From the NCBI RefSeq assembly GCF_007752345.1, contig NZ_CP036299.1, forward strand, positions 4,560,001 to 4,624,000: a stretch of 64,000 nt of DNA. The letters run 5' to 3'. This stretch comes from Planctopirus ephydatiae (GTDB lineage Bacteria; Planctomycetota; Planctomycetia; Planctomycetales; Planctomycetaceae). A model generated the notes under the pieces. The model searched no databases and had not been told where the DNA came from. It worked only from the letters and a program-made list of their open reading frames with translations. Shown here in pieces: positions 2,173 through 12,864 of this stretch (position 1 is its first letter; each line of letters starts with the position of its first letter). A program made the translations under genes and the position numbers.

Positions 2173-3384
2173 ATGGATACTGATTCGTTGGGAGAACATC
2201 GGGAAGTGGGAATCTGGTTGTGGCGGCATATCGTACCGGGTGTTTCCGCGATTGGGCTGGCAGCACTGATGCTCCTGATGTCGGATCTGCCAAAGACTCG
2301 CGACTCACAGGCCAGCAAAAGCGAGCCACTGAGAGTGGTGCTCCTGCAGATGTCGTCTCAATCCATCCTTGATGAGGCGGCTCAGCAAGTGATCGTGGGT
2401 CTGGAAGAATCGGGTTTTGCCAGTGGCGAGGCGGTGAAAGAAAATTCGAACGCCGGGGCAACAACCGGGCCGGTGAGTGGGCAAAGAATTGTCCTCACGC
2501 GGCTCAATGCTGAAAACGATATGGCAACTGCCAACGCTATGGCAACGGAAGTTGTGAGCGGCCGTTATGATCTGGTGATTACGTTGTCGACACCATGCCT
2601 GCAGGCCGTGGCTAATGCCAACAAACGAGATCAGGTCAGGCATGTATTTGGATTGGTCTCTGATCCCACCGTGGCGGGAGTTGGAGTCGGCAGTGGGCCA
2701 ATGGATCATCCGCCTTATATGGTCGGGATCGGGACATTGCCTCCGGCTGAGAAATCCTTCGAGCTGGCCAAGCAGATCAATCCGGCACTCAAGAGGGTCG
2801 GCGTGGTCTGGAACCCTGCGGAGGTGAACTCGGAAATCGCGACGAAGGTGGCTCGAACGACCTGTCAGAAACTGGGAATTGAACTGCTCGAAGCCAATGC
2901 CGAGAACACGGCAAGTGTACGTGAAGCGGCTGTTTCACTCATCGCCCGGGAGATCGACGCGTTGTGGATTGGCGGTGATATTACAGCGCTGTCGGCGGCA
3001 GATGTGCTGATTCAACTGGCCAATCAGGCCCATATTCCCGTCTTTACGTGTATGCCCGGGAATGCAGCGAAAGGGGCATTGTTTGATGTGGGAGCCAACT
3101 ACAGTGTCGTAGGACATCAGGTGGGAAAGCTGGCGGCACGCGTACTGGATGGCGAGGAACCTGCCAAGATTCCCTGGGAGGTGGCCATTCCTCCCAAGCT
3201 GTTTTTGAATAAGGGAGTGATTGGCAATTTGAAGGGTGAGTGGAAGTTTCCAAAGCAACTCCTGGATCAAGCCGATGTGATTATTGATCCAGCGGCTAAA
3301 GAACCACTCAAAACAACATTGAACCGGCCTGGTTGTTCTCGGCCAGTTTGCAGGGGCTGTTCCATCGACCGTGTCTGTGGTTAA
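2173..3384 (+). CDS. ABC importer substrate-binding protein, TrpX-like (ABC_sub_bind family)
   Basis: This 403-residue protein belongs to the ABC_sub_bind family (COG2984). Some members bind tryptophan (TrpX), but the ligand is unknown for most. An N-terminal hydrophobic segment (about residues 18-37) acts as signal or anchor, and no lipobox Cys is seen. The first lobe begins at LRVVLLQM. Family-type segments follow, including the VVSGRYDLVITLSTPCLQAVANA and PVFTCMPGNAAKGALFDVGANY regions. It is the first gene of a four-gene operon with a STAS protein, permease and ATPase. A GTG at 2206 with GGGAGA upstream is a possible alternative start. The C-terminal tail overlaps the start region of the next gene without matching the family. 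Confidence 0.85.
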   Translation: MDTDSLGEHREVGIWLWRHIVPGVSAIGLAALMLLMSDLPKTRDSQASKSEPLRVVLLQMSSQSILDEAAQQVIVGLEESGFASGEAVKENSNAGATTGPVSGQRIVLTRLNAENDMATANAMATEVVSGRYDLVITLSTPCLQAVANANKRDQVRHVFGLVSDPTVAGVGVGSGPMDHPPYMVGIGTLPPAEKSFELAKQINPALKRVGVVWNPAEVNSEIATKVARTTCQKLGIELLEANAENTASVREAAVSLIAREIDALWIGGDITALSAADVLIQLANQAHIPVFTCMPGNAAKGALFDVGANYSVVGHQVGKLAARVLDGEEPAKIPWEVAIPPKLFLNKGVIGNLKGEWKFPKQLLDQADVIIDPAAKEPLKTTLNRPGCSRPVCRGCSIDRVCG

Positions 3385-3400
3385 GGGAGAGAACCGGATT

Positions 3401-4681
3401 ATGCAGATAACTCCACAACCACACGGCGATCTTCTGGAACTGAAGTTGAGCGGGCGGCTCGATGCCGAGTGGGCCGACCTGTTGAAAAGTGCGATTCAGG
3501 ATGCGTTGCGTCGTGGTTCGCATGCTTTGCTGCTCGATTTTACCGAAGTCCATTATGTGAGTTCGGCGGGACTTTCCGTGCTGGTGAATGCCCATCAGAA
3601 GTATCAGGAAATTCGAGGTTTCTTCGGTATTGGCGGTCTCACAGGCCCGGTCGAAGAAGTGGTACGACTCACAGGGCTGTCGAAGCTTTTGTTATGTGAT
3701 CCCGAAACTGTGCGAAAGTCGCATGCGGGGGCTATGGCGACAGTCCATCTTCCCGTGGGAATCAAGTCGACCTCTGCGGCTGATTACGAAGTGTACGACC
3801 TCGAGACATTGGGGCCAGTCGAATGGGAATGTCTCGGGAACCCTGATGATTTCAACAGCCGGCCCATCGTGCCGAACCCGGCGAATTCCTGGGAGATGTC
3901 GGCTCACGATTTTGCGATTGGTCTGGGGGCATTTTCGCAAGGTTCAACGACAGCAGGATCAAGCCCGCAAGCTGGTGAACTCCTGGCTGCGGCGGGTGTG
4001 GTGGCAATTCAGACGGCAGGTGGGGCTGCACGGCCTGATTACCAGATCCTGCAGGGCGGGTATTCGCCCAGGCCTCAATTGCTGTACGGACTTCGATGCT
4101 CTGGCGAGCCGCGGTGGCTCTTGCGATTTGATCAGGATGATCGAGAGGAGTTCCTGCCACTTTATCGGCTGGCTGAAAGTGCCTTGGAGACAGCCGGGAG
4201 TGAGGCGGCTTTGATATTGGTTCTGGCTGAAACCAGTGGCCTGGTGGGTGCCACATTACGGCAATCGCCAACGGCACCTGTTATGGGAAGTTCTCGCTTT
4301 GAACATCCGGGGGTTCGCGACTGGCTGGCATGGACACCACAGCGCGAGCATGGGGAATCGCTGGTGGTGGCGGTGGGTGTGGTGGCGAGCGTCAGTCGAT
4401 TGGCTAATGACTCGCCACTGAAGCCATTCCTTAGACCATTAGCAAATGAGAGCGATCTGTGGGGGCATTTTCATGCGGCCATTTTCCCATTCAGACCATT
4501 TAAGAAGCGATTACTGGATTGGGGGCAATTTATTCCGGGATTGTTTGAGAGTGGGACTTTGCAAGGGGTGATGCATCTGGTGAATGATGACCGTCCGATT
4601 ATCGGGGCTGGCGACAGCGAGTTTATTCGCGGTGCCTGCTGGGTAGGTCCTCTGGCTGCAGAGAGGGGGATCTCGCGATGA
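3401..4681 (+). CDS. STAS-domain fusion protein encoded within an ABC importer operon
   Basis: This 426-residue protein has an N-terminal STAS domain (about residues 1-105). The anti-sigma-antagonist signature reads LLLDFTEVHYVSSAGLSVLV, with the SSAG phosphoacceptor position at 54-57. The remaining 320 residues form a soluble region I do not recognise. It contains hydrophobic strand and helix patterns (GLRCSGEPRWLLRFDQDD, ESLVVAVGVVASV) but no membrane segment. The ATG at 3401 has GGGAGA upstream, and a GTG at 3371 is an alternative. The gene lies between the substrate-binding and permease genes and overlaps the permease by 4 bases, so translation is probably coupled. By analogy with MlaB, the STAS subunit of the Mla ABC transporter, it may regulate the ATPase. 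That role is inferred. Confidence 0.75.
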   Translation: MQITPQPHGDLLELKLSGRLDAEWADLLKSAIQDALRRGSHALLLDFTEVHYVSSAGLSVLVNAHQKYQEIRGFFGIGGLTGPVEEVVRLTGLSKLLLCDPETVRKSHAGAMATVHLPVGIKSTSAADYEVYDLETLGPVEWECLGNPDDFNSRPIVPNPANSWEMSAHDFAIGLGAFSQGSTTAGSSPQAGELLAAAGVVAIQTAGGAARPDYQILQGGYSPRPQLLYGLRCSGEPRWLLRFDQDDREEFLPLYRLAESALETAGSEAALILVLAETSGLVGATLRQSPTAPVMGSSRFEHPGVRDWLAWTPQREHGESLVVAVGVVASVSRLANDSPLKPFLRPLANESDLWGHFHAAIFPFRPFKKRLLDWGQFIPGLFESGTLQGVMHLVNDDRPIIGAGDSEFIRGACWVGPLAAERGISR

Positions 4682-5619
4682 GCCTGTTGATTGGTGCATT
4701 GACGATGGGGCTGATGCTTTCCCTTCTGGCGATGGGAGTGTTGATCAGTTTCCGTATTCTGGCGTTTCGGGATCTCACGGTCGATGGTTCGATCACACTG
4801 GGTGGGGCTGTGGCGGGGATGCTGATTGCTCAGGGGTATTCCCCGATCCTTTCGACATTCGCCGCAATGCTCTGCGGAGCGCTGGCAGGGAGTATCACGG
4901 GTATCCTGGCCACCCGGCTCAAGATCAATGGGTTGTTATCGGGAATTCTGGTGATGACCGCATTGTATTCGGTCAACCTGCGTGTGATGGGCAAAAGCAA
5001 CATTCCGCTCATGAATGAGACGACTCTCTTCTCGATGGTTCAAGGCTGGGCGAAGAGCGAAGATCGCTGGACGTTTCTGATCTGGCAGGCACCGCTGCAG
5101 GATGTCTTCGTGCTGCTCCAGTTATGCGTCATGATTCCACTTGTCGCCTTGATTGTGTGGGCCTACTTTCAGACAGAGCATGGCCTGAGCATGCGGGCCA
5201 CAGGCGATAACCCGGACATGATTCGTGCTCTGGGAGTGAATGTGGACTGGATGACGGTGGCGGGTCTGGGACTCTCGAATGGATTAGTCGCACTTTCGGG
5301 AGCACTGCTGGTGCAGTATCTGGGCTTTGCCGATGTGCAGATGGGGATTGGCATGGTCGTGCTGGGGTTTGCGAGTGTGATCATTGGCGAATCGCTGGTT
5401 CGTAGCAGAAGTCTGGGTTTACTGCTGATCGGAGCGATCATGGGGTCATTGCTGTTCCGACTGCTGGTAGCGATTGCTCTGAGATGGGGATTGAATCCCA
5501 ATGATCTTAAGCTGGTAACGGCTTTGTTTGTTCTGGCCGCTCTCGTGTTACCCATGGTGCTGGCCCGCATTTCCCGACCTGGCAAGACTCAAACTTTGGA
5601 GGTCGCTCCGGATGCTTAA
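4678..5619 (+). CDS. ABC transporter permease, TrpY-like (COG4120)
   Basis: This 313-residue permease has about nine hydrophobic segments. It carries the conserved FRDLTVDGSITLGGAVAG segment near residues 30-50 and a GLSMRATGDNPDMIRALGVN loop near residues 175-193, both typical of BPD_transp_2 permeases paired with ABC_sub_bind proteins. It starts inside the STAS gene (ATGA overlap) and overlaps the ATPase gene by 8 bases, which indicates a tightly coupled operon. It would form the membrane channel of the importer. The ligand is unknown. Confidence 0.9.
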   Translation: MSLLIGALTMGLMLSLLAMGVLISFRILAFRDLTVDGSITLGGAVAGMLIAQGYSPILSTFAAMLCGALAGSITGILATRLKINGLLSGILVMTALYSVNLRVMGKSNIPLMNETTLFSMVQGWAKSEDRWTFLIWQAPLQDVFVLLQLCVMIPLVALIVWAYFQTEHGLSMRATGDNPDMIRALGVNVDWMTVAGLGLSNGLVALSGALLVQYLGFADVQMGIGMVVLGFASVIIGESLVRSRSLGLLLIGAIMGSLLFRLLVAIALRWGLNPNDLKLVTALFVLAALVLPMVLARISRPGKTQTLEVAPDA

Positions 5620-6424
5620 GCTGGTCGATCTGAAGAAGACATTTCATCCGGGAACTCCGAATGAAGTCCGTGCTCTGCAGGGGGTGAGCCTCACGATTGA
5701 AGAAGGTTCATTCGTGGTGGTGATTGGCACGAATGGTTCGGGGAAATCGACATTACTCAACGCGGTCGCAGGGACGTTTCTTGTTGATCAGGGAAAGATT
5801 GAACTGGCGGGTCAGGATGTAACGGGCTGGCCGGAACATCGCCGGGCGAAGTTCATCGGCCGGGTGTTTCAGAATCCTTATATGGGGTCGGCACCGCATC
5901 TTTCGATTGCCGAAAACCTGGCTTTGTCGGCACGTCGTGGTGATTTTCGTGGCTTGAACTGGGCATTGAAGCGGCGGCAACTTGAGGAACTCCAGCAGCG
6001 AGTGCGGGAGATGGGCCTGGGAATGGAGAACCGCTTAACGAACCTGATTGGCAGTCTTTCGGGAGGGCAGAGACAATCGTTGACTTTGCTGATGGCGAGC
6101 TTGAAGCGTCCTGATCTGTTGCTGCTCGATGAACATACGGCTGCGCTGGATCCCAAGTCGGCTGATCAGGTGATTCAACTGACGGAGAATCTCGTCCGCA
6201 AACAGAAGCTGACCACTTTGATGGTGACACACTCCATGCAACAGGCGGCCACTCTGGGCGATCGGTTGATCATGATGGTGCGTGGGCAGATTCGCTACGA
6301 CTTTCAAGGGGCTGCCAAAAAGCGACTGACGCCCGAGGCGATCTTGAGCAAGTTTGAGGAAGTTCGCCGGATGGATCTGCTTGATGAATCGGCTGCCGAG
6401 CTTCTGAGCCAGAGATATGTGTAG
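5612..6424 (+). CDS. ABC transporter ATP-binding protein (COG1101 type)
   Basis: This 270-residue ATPase energises the importer encoded just upstream. It has Walker A GTNGSGKST (39-47), Q-loop VFQNP (85-89), signature LSGGQRQ (149-155), Walker B LLLLDEH (169-175) and switch His in VTHS (205-208). The ATG at 5612 has TTTGGAGG upstream and overlaps the permease stop. An in-frame start 84 bases upstream would lie inside the permease gene and is rejected. It is the last gene of the operon. No clear terminator follows, only the dispersed hairpin at 6547-6595. Confidence 0.93.
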   Translation: MLKLVDLKKTFHPGTPNEVRALQGVSLTIEEGSFVVVIGTNGSGKSTLLNAVAGTFLVDQGKIELAGQDVTGWPEHRRAKFIGRVFQNPYMGSAPHLSIAENLALSARRGDFRGLNWALKRRQLEELQQRVREMGLGMENRLTNLIGSLSGGQRQSLTLLMASLKRPDLLLLDEHTAALDPKSADQVIQLTENLVRKQKLTTLMVTHSMQQAATLGDRLIMMVRGQIRYDFQGAAKKRLTPEAILSKFEEVRRMDLLDESAAELLSQRYV

Positions 6425-6623: not shown

Positions 6624-7889
6624 TCAGGTTGATGCAGCGACGATGGTTTTCAGTTTTTCAACCATCACTTGTTGTTTCGCGGCGACCAGTTTCCGGGCTT
6701 GAGCCGCTTTTTCCTGTGCAGCTTGTGGATCTTTGACCAGAGAGACGACGGTTTCGGAAAGCCGGGCGAGTTGAGCGGGTTGATCGAAGTCGAAGAGCCA
6801 GTCCTGCAGACCAATGGCATTCCACATCATCCCTTTACTGGTCTGTTCTTCAAACCGGCCCACGAGAGCGGGAATCCGATTGCCAATACACATAATCGGC
6901 GAGTGCATTTCGAGACCGAATAAGCCCAGCGATTGCCGATAGACACTCAGCGCTTCATCGGTGAGCCAGTAGTTCTCACGCCAGACGACACGTGGGCGGA
7001 CATCTTCGGGAAGTTTGTCGAAGATCAATTCTTTGCCGACCTTCATTTGTGAGCGATCTTCGGGGCAAAGGAGAACCTTTGCCCTCGTTTGACGCACAAC
7101 CTGAGTGATGGCGTCACGCAGCGGGGCGTGATCATGCTCGGCCATGCTTTCGTTGCGGGCATGTTTTTTCTCATCGAAGGGCTGATTCTTGATCAGCCAG
7201 TAAGGGGTATATCGAAGCCTGGGGATACAGCAGATGAACTCGCCGGGAGTGAGTTCTCGGGCGGTTAGAAATGCGTCGGCGGCTGGCTGGTTGGCCAGAT
7301 CGACGGCAAAGGCTCCATCGGGCCCGAAATCCATGATGGGACAAGTGGCACCATTCGCACGGGCTCGATCGAGAGAAACGGGATCGCGAAAATATGTGAA
7401 CCTGGCATTGTTCACCCGTTTGAGCGTAGCTTCGTCGAAGGTTCCTAAAGTGACGCCAAAGATGCCATAAGGCTTTTGAGTTTCGTTGACCCACCGGTCG
7501 ATTTCTTTCGCACCGACGATGGATGGCCCGGAGCCATGCAGCAGAAAATCGTAATCGGTGAGTGCGGCGGTGATTTCATCGCGTGACTGCACGATCTTGA
7601 GTTGGGGGAAGCGAGCCATGAGGAGCTCGTGGACACCATCTTTGACACTGCTGGGCCATAAGCCGACTTCGGCTTCGGGGTAATGCTGTTCAAGGAGATG
7701 CAGAACGCCGGGGGTGTGGGCAATGTCGCCGATGTTCACCGTCTGCCAGGAAGATCGCAACAGGATTTTCGGGCGAGACTTTTTTGCTGGTGCTGCCCAG
7801 GCTCCAGCCGCCAGGTTTCGATCGGGTCGAGCCAGAGTGCAGGCTGTGCCAAGAGCGGCAAGGTCTTTGAGAAAATCTCGTCGTTGCAT
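6624..7889 (-). CDS. Tat-exported polysaccharide pyruvyl transferase-like protein
   Basis: This 421-residue protein starts MQRRDFLKDLAALG, a twin-arginine signal, followed by a processed-looking AWA site near residue 32. The mature part resembles polysaccharide pyruvyl transferases (CsaB family). It has an N-terminal segment SSWQTVNIGDIAHTPGVLHL, a LLHGSGPSIVG loop, GIFGVTLG and FTYFRDPVSLDRA, followed by a C-terminal half with FGLEMHSPIMCIGNRIPAL. The ATG at 7889 has GGGAAG upstream, and an in-frame start further upstream would bury the Tat signal. Export is odd, because known members transfer pyruvate from cytoplasmic phosphoenolpyruvate. It may have another role. The gene stands alone and converges with the ABC operon. 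Confidence 0.75.
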   Translation of the reverse strand: MQRRDFLKDLAALGTACTLARPDRNLAAGAWAAPAKKSRPKILLRSSWQTVNIGDIAHTPGVLHLLEQHYPEAEVGLWPSSVKDGVHELLMARFPQLKIVQSRDEITAALTDYDFLLHGSGPSIVGAKEIDRWVNETQKPYGIFGVTLGTFDEATLKRVNNARFTYFRDPVSLDRARANGATCPIMDFGPDGAFAVDLANQPAADAFLTARELTPGEFICCIPRLRYTPYWLIKNQPFDEKKHARNESMAEHDHAPLRDAITQVVRQTRAKVLLCPEDRSQMKVGKELIFDKLPEDVRPRVVWRENYWLTDEALSVYRQSLGLFGLEMHSPIMCIGNRIPALVGRFEEQTSKGMMWNAIGLQDWLFDFDQPAQLARLSETVVSLVKDPQAAQEKAAQARKLVAAKQQVMVEKLKTIVAAST

Positions 7890-8052
7890 CGTATGGTCTT
7901 CCCGCCGTGTATGGTCGAAGTGGCGTCTGATGATGGCTTCCAGCGTGATTGTCAGCCGCTGATCATGGCTCATGCAGCATGTTTGAGGCTAGTCGAAAGG
8001 ATACCCGCTTGTGCAGTCATGCGGGCTGGAAATGAATGCATACAAAAGCAAT

Positions 8053-9993: not shown

Positions 9994-10893
9994 ATGGAGA
10001 TCACTCAAAGAAGTTCCAGCATCCCGATGTCGGCACTCACGCCAGATTCTGCAGCATCTGCCGACCATGAGACGCCACCGATCGATGTGGCGAAAGTTGC
10101 TGCGACGAAAGGTAATGCAGCTTCTCGGCCACTGATTGAAGTGCGGGACTTGAGTCTCCGATTCTCCACAGGGAGTGAGATTCTTGCTGCCGTGAATCTG
10201 GGGGTGAATGAGGACGAATTTGTCGCACTTCTGGGGCCTTCGGGCTGTGGGAAATCGACGCTCTTGCGTGTGATGGCGGGACTGATCCACAGCACGGGTG
10301 GAGAGGTGACGATCGATGGTCTGGATCCTGCCAGTGCCCGCAAAAACAGGCATCCCCTCGCCTTTGTGTTCCAAGATCCGACGCTCCTGCCCTGGAGAAC
10401 TGTGTGGGATAACATCCGGTTGCCACTGGAACTGCAAGGGGTGCCTTACGCCGAGCAGATGAAAGCCGTTGAGGCGAGTCTGCCGCTGATCGGTCTGACG
10501 ACAGCAGATGCAACCAAGCGGCCGCGCAGTTTATCGGGTGGTATGCGCATGCGGGTTTCGCTGGCCCGGGCATTGGTGACGAATCCGCACATTCTGTTTA
10601 TGGATGAGCCTTTTGCCGCTCTGGATGATGTGCTGCGGCAGCAACTGAATGAAGAAGTGCTGACTCTGAGTCGGCAGAAGCAGTGGACCTGTGTGTTTGT
10701 GACACATAATGTGGCCGAGGCAGCCTTTATGGCTGACCGAGTGCTGGTGATGCGGTCGAAGCCAGGTTCAATTGCTCGCGTGATCGATGTGCCATTTTCT
10801 CATCCACGAACTGCCGCATTGCGGGAATCGGCTGAGTTCGCGCAGTTCGCAGGTCAGGTGAGTCGGGAACTGCGGGAGGTCATGTCATGGTGA
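9994..10893 (+). CDS. ABC transporter ATP-binding protein, SsuB/TauB/ThiZ type
   Basis: This 299-residue ATPase belongs to the nitrate/sulfonate/taurine/thiamine-precursor importer group. Walker A GPSGCGKST is at 81-89, the Q-loop at VFQDP (125-129), signature LSGGM (180-184), Walker B ILFMDEP (200-206) and switch His in FVTHN. The PTLLPWRTVWDN segment is typical of the group. About 45 residues before the ABC domain are unusual and look disordered, so a later start is possible. The last 7 bases overlap the permease gene, and a lipoprotein substrate-binding gene follows. Confidence 0.9.
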   Translation: MEITQRSSSIPMSALTPDSAASADHETPPIDVAKVAATKGNAASRPLIEVRDLSLRFSTGSEILAAVNLGVNEDEFVALLGPSGCGKSTLLRVMAGLIHSTGGEVTIDGLDPASARKNRHPLAFVFQDPTLLPWRTVWDNIRLPLELQGVPYAEQMKAVEASLPLIGLTTADATKRPRSLSGGMRMRVSLARALVTNPHILFMDEPFAALDDVLRQQLNEEVLTLSRQKQWTCVFVTHNVAEAAFMADRVLVMRSKPGSIARVIDVPFSHPRTAALRESAEFAQFAGQVSRELREVMSW

Positions 10894-11720
10894 CTGGGCC
10901 GGCCACCGCTGTTTCCACAACGGCATCGCAATGGGGATCGTACTTTTTGCGGACGATCGTGCCTCCGCTTGTACTCTTTGTAATTGTGCTGATGGCGTGG
11001 GATGGGGCTGTCCGCTTCTGGGGAATCAAGCCTTACATTCTGCCGGGGCCCTGGCGCGTGCTGAGTGCGATCCTTTCGAGCCGGGAAGAGTTGACGAAAG
11101 CCTTCCTGCTGACCGGTGGGTCGGCTGTGGCGGGGTTTTCGCTGAGTGTGATGGTGGGGACGCTGGTGGGCTGCCTGTTCTCGCAATCGACGATTATTCG
11201 GAGCAGTGGCTACCCTTATGCGATCTTTCTACAGACAGTTCCCATTATTGCTGTCGCTCCACTGATCATTTTGTGGTTTGGACGAGGTTTTGGAGGAGTG
11301 GTAGCGGTGGCGTTTGTCATCAGCCTGTTTCCGATGATCGCCAATGCGACTGCGGGAATGGTGCAGATTGATCCTGATCTGTTTGATCTTTTCAAGCTGA
11401 ATGATGCCTCGAGATGGCAGATTTTGTTCAAGCTGCGGTTGCCGAACAGTGTGCCCTCGTTATGTACCGGAGCGCGGACTTCGAGTGGGCTGGCTGTAGT
11501 GGGAGCGATTGTCGGCGAATTTTACGCGGGGTATGGCTCGAAACATTTTGGTTTGGGGTACATTATCCGATTGACGACTGATCAGGCGAAGACCGATGCC
11601 TTGTTTGCGGCAGTCATGGTTTCGACACTATTGGGAATACTTATCTTCGGAGTAGTGAGTTTGATCAGTCTGACGGTTCTGGCTCGCTGGGCACCGCCCG
11701 AAGTGGGGGAAAGGGCCTGA
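10887..11720 (+). CDS. ABC transporter permease, SsuC/ThiX type
   Basis: This 277-residue permease has six predicted membrane segments. The cytoplasmic EAA loop is present but divergent near residues 165-190 (DLFDLFKLNDASRWQILFKLRLPNSVPSL). The QTVPIIAVAPLIILWFG segment is characteristic of the NrtB/SsuC/ThiX permeases. The start has GGGAGG upstream inside the ATPase gene and overlaps it by 7 bases, so the two are coupled. It pairs with the ATPase and the NMT1/THI5-like binding lipoprotein. Confidence 0.92.
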   Translation: MVTGPATAVSTTASQWGSYFLRTIVPPLVLFVIVLMAWDGAVRFWGIKPYILPGPWRVLSAILSSREELTKAFLLTGGSAVAGFSLSVMVGTLVGCLFSQSTIIRSSGYPYAIFLQTVPIIAVAPLIILWFGRGFGGVVAVAFVISLFPMIANATAGMVQIDPDLFDLFKLNDASRWQILFKLRLPNSVPSLCTGARTSSGLAVVGAIVGEFYAGYGSKHFGLGYIIRLTTDQAKTDALFAAVMVSTLLGILIFGVVSLISLTVLARWAPPEVGERA

Positions 11721-11826
11721 GCAGAAGCCAGGATTCCTGTGAGTTGGTTTTGACGAACAGGGCATGAGAATGAATTATCGGACGGGGAACTGATCGGCTG
11801 AGAATTGCTGGAGAGGGAGATTACAA

Positions 11827-12864
11827 ATGATGTCTTCGCGGCTGGTGCTGGGGTGGATGCTGTGTTGTGCTATGTTGCTGGCGGGTTGCCCAATGAATCC
11901 TGCGAATCAGGCAGGAGAAGGGGCTGTCAAAACAACTGACGGCAAGACGTTGACACCCGTAGAAATTACTTTGAACTGGTTTCCTGAAGCTGAGCATGGT
12001 GGTTTTTATGCGGCTTTAGTAAATGGCTATTTTGAAGAGGAAGGGCTCGCTGTCACGATCAAGCCGGGCGGGCCAGATATTCCAGTGGTGCAGTATGTGG
12101 CGGCTGGTCAGACGCAGTTTGGTGTGGATAATGCTGATAAGCTGCTGCTGGTAAGAGCTCAGGAAGCGGATGCTGTGGCGGTACTGGCTCCGCTGCAGGA
12201 TAGCCCGCGCTGCATCATGGTGCAGGCAGAATCGGGGATTAAGACGTTCGATGATCTGGCCGCTAAGCCGAAGTTCACGCTGGCGATGAATCCTGGTCAG
12301 CCGTTTGCGATGTATCTGCAGAAGAAGCTGGATCTTTCAAAGGTGACCGTTGTGCCTTATGGAGGCAGTCTGGTGCCATTTCTGACGGAGAAGGATTTTG
12401 GCACACAGGCGTATAACTTCAGTGAGCCCTTCAATGCCAGAAAGCAGAATGCCAATCCAGTGAATCTAATGGTGTCGGATCTAGGCTTTAATCCTTATAC
12501 CAGCCTGTTGATTACCAGCCGCGAGTTGATTGAGAAGAATCCGGAGCTGGTCCAAAAGGTAGTGCGGGCTTCACTCAAGGGATGGCGAAAGTATCTGGAT
12601 GATCCTCATGGGACGAATACGTACATCAATTCGCTGAATAAAGAAATGGGCATGGATATTCTCGACTTTGGTGTCGAGACTTTAAAGCCGCTGTGTGAGC
12701 CAGCCCGTTTGCCAGCCGGCCAGTTGGGAAAGATGGATCCTGCCGAATGGACGAAGCTCTCGCAGCAACTGGTGGAGATGGGAGCACTCGAAGCAAACCA
12801 GGCGGCTCCTGAGAAGGCGTATTCGACGCAGTTTTTTGAAGCGGCGACCAATCCTGAGAAATAG
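11827..12864 (+). CDS. NMT1/THI5-like ABC importer substrate-binding lipoprotein
   Basis: This 345-residue lipoprotein has lipobox LLAGC with Cys21, then an NMT1/THI5-like domain. ITLNWFPEAEHGGFYAALVNGYFEEEGL (about residues 47-75) and the GQTQFGVDNADKLLL segment match the family that includes ThiY-type pyrimidine-precursor binders as well as sulfonate and nitrate binders. The WFPEAEHGGFY version is closest to the thiamine-precursor (ThiY/THI5) side in my judgement. No thiamine riboswitch is visible, so the ligand stays open. GAGAGGGAGA lies upstream of the ATG. The gene follows the permease after 106 bases and probably belongs to the same operon. Confidence 0.85.
   Translation: MMSSRLVLGWMLCCAMLLAGCPMNPANQAGEGAVKTTDGKTLTPVEITLNWFPEAEHGGFYAALVNGYFEEEGLAVTIKPGGPDIPVVQYVAAGQTQFGVDNADKLLLVRAQEADAVAVLAPLQDSPRCIMVQAESGIKTFDDLAAKPKFTLAMNPGQPFAMYLQKKLDLSKVTVVPYGGSLVPFLTEKDFGTQAYNFSEPFNARKQNANPVNLMVSDLGFNPYTSLLITSRELIEKNPELVQKVVRASLKGWRKYLDDPHGTNTYINSLNKEMGMDILDFGVETLKPLCEPARLPAGQLGKMDPAEWTKLSQQLVEMGALEANQAAPEKAYSTQFFEAATNPEK

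Follow-up and report, generated by a model that had tools for sequence, protein, structure and literature searches.

The operon analysed here lies at positions 2173-6424 of a 64,000-nucleotide stretch of the Planctopirus ephydatiae genome (RefSeq assembly GCF_007752345.1, contig NZ_CP036299.1, positions 4,560,001 to 4,624,000 of the forward strand; the whole stretch is called the window below). It encodes an ATP-binding cassette (ABC) importer of the TrpXYZ-like type and, between the importer genes, a STAS domain fused to a C-terminal domain (CTD); the fusion protein is called STAS-CTD. The operon was confirmed to be a STAS-containing variant of the TrpXYZ-like importer that is constant in a clade of Planctomycetota. 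STAS-CTD is a constant member of the operon, in fixed order with the permease and the ATPase, and it carries an invariant serine in its STAS domain and invariant polar residues in its CTD.

Organization of the operon

Four genes follow one another on the + strand in the order substrate-binding protein (SBP), STAS fusion, permease and ATPase (Table 1). Profile searches assigned the SBP to PF04392 (E 1.1e-36), the permease to PF02653 (E 1.3e-30) and the ATPase to PF00005 (E 2.6e-29), a complete TrpXYZ-like core in a single operon. The STAS domain matched PF01740 (E 7.5e-14) and PF13466 (E 1.3e-10). The TGA of the STAS fusion (4679-4681) and the permease ATG at 4678 overlap by 4 bases; between permease and ATPase genes the overlap is 8 bases (5612-5619). 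The listed reading frame of STAS-CTD opens at a GTG (3371); homologues align from the ATG at 3401, mostly with an ATG of their own. Re-reading of the sequence gave the same gene order, strand, coordinates and 4-base overlap as a preliminary description of this DNA, and the two Pfam matches agree with the clear STAS signature that it reported. The Rfam scan of the window, made for a riboswitch that could name the substrate, returned no match at gathering score.

Table 1. Features of the STAS-CTD importer operon (positions in the window)
Feature	Position	Strand	Basis
SBP (PF04392, ABC_sub_bind/TrpX-like); N-terminal hydrophobic segment, single SBP domain	2173..3384	+	profile search
STAS-CTD fusion protein, 426 amino acids, ATG start	3401..4681	+	homologue alignment and profile search
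STAS domain, residues 1-103, nearest SpoIIAA-type anti-sigma factor antagonists	3401..3709	+	profile/PDB comparison
Ser54-Ser55 codons, both invariant in 48/48 copies; Ser55 aligned to SpoIIAA Ser58	3560..3565	+	
CTD, residues 122-426, about 305 amino acids, no known family	3764..4678	+	profile scans
Glu193 codon, invariant 48/48	3977..3979	+	alignment
Asp213 codon, invariant 48/48	4037..4039	+	alignment
His356-x-His358 (HxH), both His invariant 48/48	4466..4474	+	alignment
His392 codon, invariant 48/48	4574..4576	+	alignment
ATGA overlap of 4 bases, STAS-CTD stop/permease start	4678..4681	+	
Permease (PF02653, BPD_transp_2)	4678..5619	+	profile search
ABC ATPase (PF00005), 270 amino acids	5612..6424	+	profile search
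ATPase C-terminal tail LLDESAAELLSQRYV, type found in STAS-operon ATPases	6377..6421	+	alignment

Conservation of STAS-CTD in the importer operon

STAS-CTD was found at 50 places in 49 genomes, one of them a remnant; a copy split over two contigs in G084 was counted once. Among 170 genomes of the same family, 70 matched the query, many through the STAS domain only, and both domains were present in 31 copies in 30 genomes. The CTD was detected in 6 of 392 genomes drawn evenly from the phylum, four of them outside the window's family, and a wider CTD profile detected it in 39 of 397 genomes of the class, 15 of which were new; these phylum and class counts are lower bounds, because five candidates were scored per genome. 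Two further classes (1/29 and 1/23 genomes) yielded known copies only.

The preliminary description had staked the idea of a regulatory subunit beforehand on the STAS gene staying in the operon of relatives. It does stay: the next gene 3' of STAS-CTD is the permease in 48 of the 49 non-remnant copies, that is, in every copy whose 3' neighbour is on the contig, and the exception (G132) ends at a contig edge. The ATPase was seen in 45 of the 49, contigs ending in the others (G132, G147, G122 and G783). Conversely, a close permease (E <= 1e-41) was present in 29 of the 170 family genomes, all of them among the 30 that carry STAS-CTD, the odd one being at a contig edge. The SBP moves while the STAS-CTD/permease/ATPase unit remains constant: it may be encoded upstream, or downstream of the ATPase, may comprise two or three domains in one frame, and in G432 forms a single protein with the permease. 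The arrangement is more than chance, because it recurs in 49 genomes and between proteins of down to 19% pairwise identity. Divergence was also correlated among the four parts in 29 operons (r 0.82-0.93), a result that does not discriminate, since all parts of the operon are inherited together. When 23 stretches were compared (20 fetched regions plus L031, L032 and the window's first 16 kb), no gene family outside the operon was shared by more than 3 of them.

The copies differ in details of layout. Many relatives carry two tandem PF04392-type SBP domains per reading frame (L032, L082, L084, L085, L090, L096, L154, L155 and L169), and L093:1701-4571 carries three. The window operon and those of its two closest relatives encode only one such domain; one was probably lost in this group, because the congener G093 has two. 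An unusual importer architecture is found in G432 (L078:2603-5476), with the permease and two SBP domains in one protein of 957 amino acids. The gap between STAS-CTD and permease in G002 (L169, between 4398 and 5293) is about 0.9 kb, far above that of other copies; N's are absent in L008. The remnant, in G650 (L157:3824-5044), is a reading frame in which the greater part of an SBP runs into a piece of the CTD, with no STAS, and may reflect a rearrangement or an assembly fault. On contig C477 of G122 (L029, L067), the permease end and the ATPase are at the contig start and STAS-CTD and the permease start at its end, a layout produced either by tandem copies or by a circular assembly fault.

Two neighbours of the operon in the window were also noted. 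A polysaccharide pyruvyl transferase family protein (PF04230) is encoded convergently at 6624-7973 on the - strand. A second importer, of a different type, is encoded at 9994-12864 (ABC ATPase, BPD_transp_1 permease and NMT1/THI5-like SBP).

STAS domain and its serine

Residue conservation was read from 48 aligned full-length copies, whose pairwise identity averages 37% and falls to 19% at the lowest; the alignment leaves out the remnant and the truncated copy of G084. The best PDB match of the STAS domain was SpoIIAA (1th8_B, E 1.8e-18). S54 and S55 are identical in all 48 copies, and S55 aligns with the first serine of the SpoIIAA DSSG motif, Ser58 in the 1th8_B numbering; by this alignment, S55 corresponds to the phospho-acceptor Ser/Thr position of the anti-anti-sigma type. 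Three chains that we take to be MlaB gave weaker matches: 7ch8_K (E 2.5e-6), 6z5u_C (E 0.3) and 6ic4_K (Ttg2E, E 0.32). Against the NCBIfam models, the protein passed the TIGR00377 superfamily cut-off (54.2 bits for 53.45) and fell below those of the spore_II_AA equivalog (33.1 bits for 114.75) and the MlaB equivalog (NF033618, mlaB_1 model; 18.8 bits for 90).

C-terminal domain

The CTD, which a linker joins to the STAS domain, is a conserved domain of no known family or structure. Residues ~122-426 of the window protein gave no Pfam, NCBIfam or PHROG match, and the CTD had a single match among PDB profiles, at E 0.79. When 28 members were scanned, stray matches appeared in one or two of them, the best being E 0.066 in Pfam, E 0.012 in NCBIfam (1 of 28) and E 0.2 in PHROGs. 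These searches extend the preliminary description, in which the C-terminal part (about 320 residues there, about 305 here) had gone unrecognized by eye. Two possible origins of the domain were rejected: an internal duplication (half-versus-half profile comparison, probability 0.3%) and a second, degenerate STAS domain (probability 0.1%, domain match 3.7 bits). AlphaFold2 monomers built from three-row alignments were too poor to be used for a fold search, with predicted local distance difference test scores of 38.3 for the full protein and 36.6 for the CTD.

E193, D213, H356, H358 and H392 are identical in the 48 full-length copies, as are G18, G73, G146, G174, G192 and F243; position 277 is E in 45 copies and D in three. 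The low-confidence model would place the HxH pair, which is accompanied by a third histidine, in a strand. The invariant polar residues may form a metal site or an active site.

ATPase tail and comparison with known STAS systems

The ATPases of the STAS operons share a C-terminal tail that follows, with some variation, the pattern QLDExAAxMLxxQYV. It is present in all 45 distinct STAS-type ATPases seen to their end, reads QLTEEMLESLRREYA in L078 and has three additional residues in L166. The STAS-type rows L050, L059 and L067 were labelled tail 'none' since their loci are cut, and in G122, L067 and the STAS gene lie at opposite contig ends, so that their pairing is presumptive. The tail was found in none of 15 STAS-less ATPases (12 plasmid relatives and three planctomycete outgroups), whose sequence differs at this place, and it extends 3 to 10 alignment columns past the plasmid ATPases.

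MlaB of the MlaFEDB phospholipid transporter is likewise a STAS protein that belongs with an ABC transporter, and it likewise has a Ser/Thr at the regulatory position. In the excerpt of the MlaFB paper that was consulted (PMC7367683), MlaB Thr52 is given as the equivalent of SpoIIAA Ser58, near the centre of the MlaF-MlaB interface; Thr52Glu weakened MlaF binding and Thr52Ala was reported to be non-functional. The same excerpt describes a distinctive C-terminal tail of MlaF, an extension of about 25 amino acids that touches MlaB. By analogy, the clade-specific ATPase tail hints at a STAS contact, but it is confounded with phylogeny. The two systems differ in other respects. MlaB is a lone minimal STAS domain (PMC7367683, same excerpt), whereas that of the window is fused to a new domain of ~305 amino acids, and Mla/MCE systems have an MlaE-type permease and an MCE protein where the window operon has a BPD_transp_2 permease and a PF04392 SBP. 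Neither MCE nor MlaE families were among those listed at E <= 1 for the four operon proteins (for the ATPase, the best 25 of 29). The MlaB parallel drawn in the preliminary description is qualified by the STAS domain, which is nearer SpoIIAA. SpoIIAA/RsbV are the closest STAS sequences and share the conserved regulatory serine, but STAS-CTD differs from them in its fusion to the CTD, in its tie to an importer operon and in that a kinase linked to it was seen in a single genome.

Relation to TrpXYZ-like importers

The window operon shares its three core families (PF04392 SBP, BPD_transp_2 permease and ABC ATPase) with TrpXYZ-like importers. Permeases up to 49% identical were found in 74 plasmid records (39-49% in the best 40 of the 74), and 12 operons were sampled from these records (Pseudomonadota, Bacillota, Fusobacteriota and Actinomycetota). 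Each of the 12 keeps the SBP, permease and ATPase together, with different ATPase ends, and neither STAS nor CTD was found within ~9.7 kb in any of them; the window clade has in addition the gene of a putative cytoplasmic subunit. Since STAS is absent from these 12 operons of the wider family, it is a lineage-specific component. It is also missing from two planctomycete operons of the wider type, L077 (G432) and L081 (G138). The SBP is related to TrpX without being TrpX proper: it scored 142.2 bits against the TrpX equivalog (NF041285), for a cut-off of 390, and for this reason tryptophan is not established as the substrate. Its best solved relatives are 6hni, labelled a sugar-family solute-binding protein, and 3lkv and 3lft, both labelled uncharacterized proteins.

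As far as searched (planctomycete genomes, plasmids and viral contigs), the STAS-CTD importer belongs to one clade of Planctomycetota; the CTD genome searches covered this phylum, whole genomes of other phyla being outside their range. The plasmid collection gave three matches, to the STAS domain only. In viral contigs, 22 stretches fitted a pattern and none encoded a relative (one of eight scans), and a genome_contigs search with a close-relative query returned two loci. In a careful permease tree built without three long rows that lack STAS (L081, L077 and L120) and without L076, an orphan that also lacks it, 31 STAS-type rows were split from 11 STAS-less rows by a branch with support 99/97, and the STAS label required a single change. 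The preliminary description had called a STAS regulator in a TrpXYZ-like importer unusual. A STAS protein is indeed built into such an operon, with an uncharacterized C-terminal domain, and is retained there, and outside the clade none of the 12 sampled operons has it; the arrangement is accordingly a trait of the lineage and is not general to the wider family.

Genes of a possible phospho-switch

The operon of G432 encodes STAS-CTD, the permease with two SBP domains and the ATPase, then a lone STAS protein (PF01740, E 3.4e-18), a HATPase_c_2 protein (PF13581, E 3.8e-24) and a Cache sensor. This cassette (L078:1-1719) directly follows the ATPase gene, and its Cache_3-Cache_2 sensor is cut by the contig end. 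A rough screen for linkage, with a kinase profile and six reading frames from phosphatase loci that were made in this analysis, took in 38 loci, a number of which lack STAS. The window genome has four HATPase_c_2 and six SpoIIE matches above cut-off, none of them beside the operon, and proteins of both families occur somewhere in all 34 genomes checked. These matches are a weak point in favour of the gating proposed below, because unrelated control genomes also exceeded the cut-offs (PF13581 in 10 of 14, PF07228 in 5 of 14). Going by these sequences, a phospho-switch is possible.

Proposed role of STAS-CTD and alternative explanations

Regulation of the ATPase by STAS-CTD is the leading candidate mechanism. 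STAS-CTD would be a cytoplasmic accessory subunit that gates the TrpXYZ-like importer of Planctomycetota through its ATPase, under phospho- or ligand control; we hold this tentatively, as a reading that falls a little short of an even chance. The STAS domain would bind the ATPase in the way that MlaB binds MlaF, and the clade-specific tail would contribute to the interface. The CTD would sense a metal, the imported compound or a derivative of it in the cytoplasm and set whether STAS is bound, and phosphorylation of Ser55 by an RsbW-type kinase could release or inactivate STAS-CTD. The bound state of STAS would then set import, and the importer would be gated from inside. In favour of this proposal are the constant place of STAS-CTD beside the permease and ATPase genes despite the mobile SBP, its joint occurrence with the close permease, the 99/97 branch of the reduced permease tree, the shared ATPase tail, the alignment of S55 with SpoIIAA Ser58 and the cassette of G432.

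Several observations weigh against this proposal. The STAS domain is far nearer in score to SpoIIAA than to the MlaB chains, and the residue preceding S55 is Ser, compared with Asp in SpoIIAA. The ATPase tail is confounded with the common descent of the clade. Kinase linkage was found in one of the 38 loci (G432) and phosphatase linkage in none. G432 itself has the STAS-less operon L077 and a permease-SBP paralogue (L076/L079) with neither STAS nor ATPase within 8.5 kb, and because of this paralogue the STAS rule is not absolute for paralogues. Dropping L076 from the tree removes a row that speaks against a strict STAS rule; in a quick permease tree of all 46 rows, the STAS label required three changes, and the starred branches force at least two changes. 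The second permease-SBP fusion of G432 (L079:2062-3960) lies near a reading frame that appeared integrase-like by eye.

The resemblance to SpoIIAA, together with the passing TIGR00377 score and the invariant phospho-serine position, is what would be expected if STAS-CTD were instead a signalling output, an anti-anti-sigma-type antagonist that would inform an RsbW-type kinase of importer activity or internal substrate and so alter transcription by partner switching. HATPase_c_2 and SpoIIE proteins in 34 of 34 genomes, and the STAS/HATPase_c_2/Cache cassette in one operon, also speak for it. However, the rough screen placed a kinase beside the operon just once, no other gene family recurs in more than three of the 23 stretches, and a reporter would have no need of a fixed place ahead of the permease when the SBP changes position; we regard this account as unlikely, though worth keeping in view. 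The CTD lends itself to a different explanation, in which it would be a probably metal-dependent enzyme acting on the imported compound at the transporter's inner face, with the STAS domain only as its dock. An HxH motif with a third histidine and acidic residues is a usual make-up of a metal site, and E193, D213, H356, H358 and H392 stay unchanged in all 48 copies despite the low identity of these (37% mean, 19% minimum); this E/D/HxH/H set could equally well belong to an enzyme as to the sensor of a gating subunit. But no enzyme family or solved structure was matched, the 23 stretches show no metabolic gene that repeatedly accompanies the operons, and the invariant polar residues might instead serve to bind a regulatory ligand, which leaves the enzyme improbable to a similar degree. 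The evidence does not strongly separate either of these accounts from gating of the importer. The link between STAS-CTD and the importer is drawn entirely from sequence, and this would suit a passenger of the operon, co-transcribed with the importer and functionally independent of it. Such a passenger is very improbable: STAS-CTD is kept before the permease across several families of the phylum, all 48 copies with a known 3' neighbour have the permease there, and the sole copy without STAS and permease is a remnant.

Significance

If gating by STAS-CTD is taken together with its details, the operon would represent a new class of ABC-importer regulation, in which a serine-switchable STAS subunit gates a nutrient importer. 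The subunit would bring its own sensor domain of a new kind, binding a metal or a ligand (E/D/HxH/H), and would have evolved within Planctomycetota alongside an ATPase tail that matches it. We consider this fuller proposal possible but somewhat doubtful. Among the matches listed from the open-licence literature, no paper was on a STAS protein of a TrpXYZ-like importer or of ABC operons in planctomycetes, which is weak evidence of novelty. The excerpt of the MlaFB paper (PMC7367683) raised the possibility of such STAS regulation more broadly among ABC transporters. The proposal, if true, would extend STAS control to an ABC transporter that is not of the MCE/Mla family. It concerns an importer clade outside MCE that has a constant STAS protein, a new domain and invariant residues to mutate. 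If STAS-CTD does not bind the ATPase, the CTD still stands as a conserved, unassigned domain that probably holds an active site or a metal site; if it does, STAS docking would be a wider way of gating ABC transporters.

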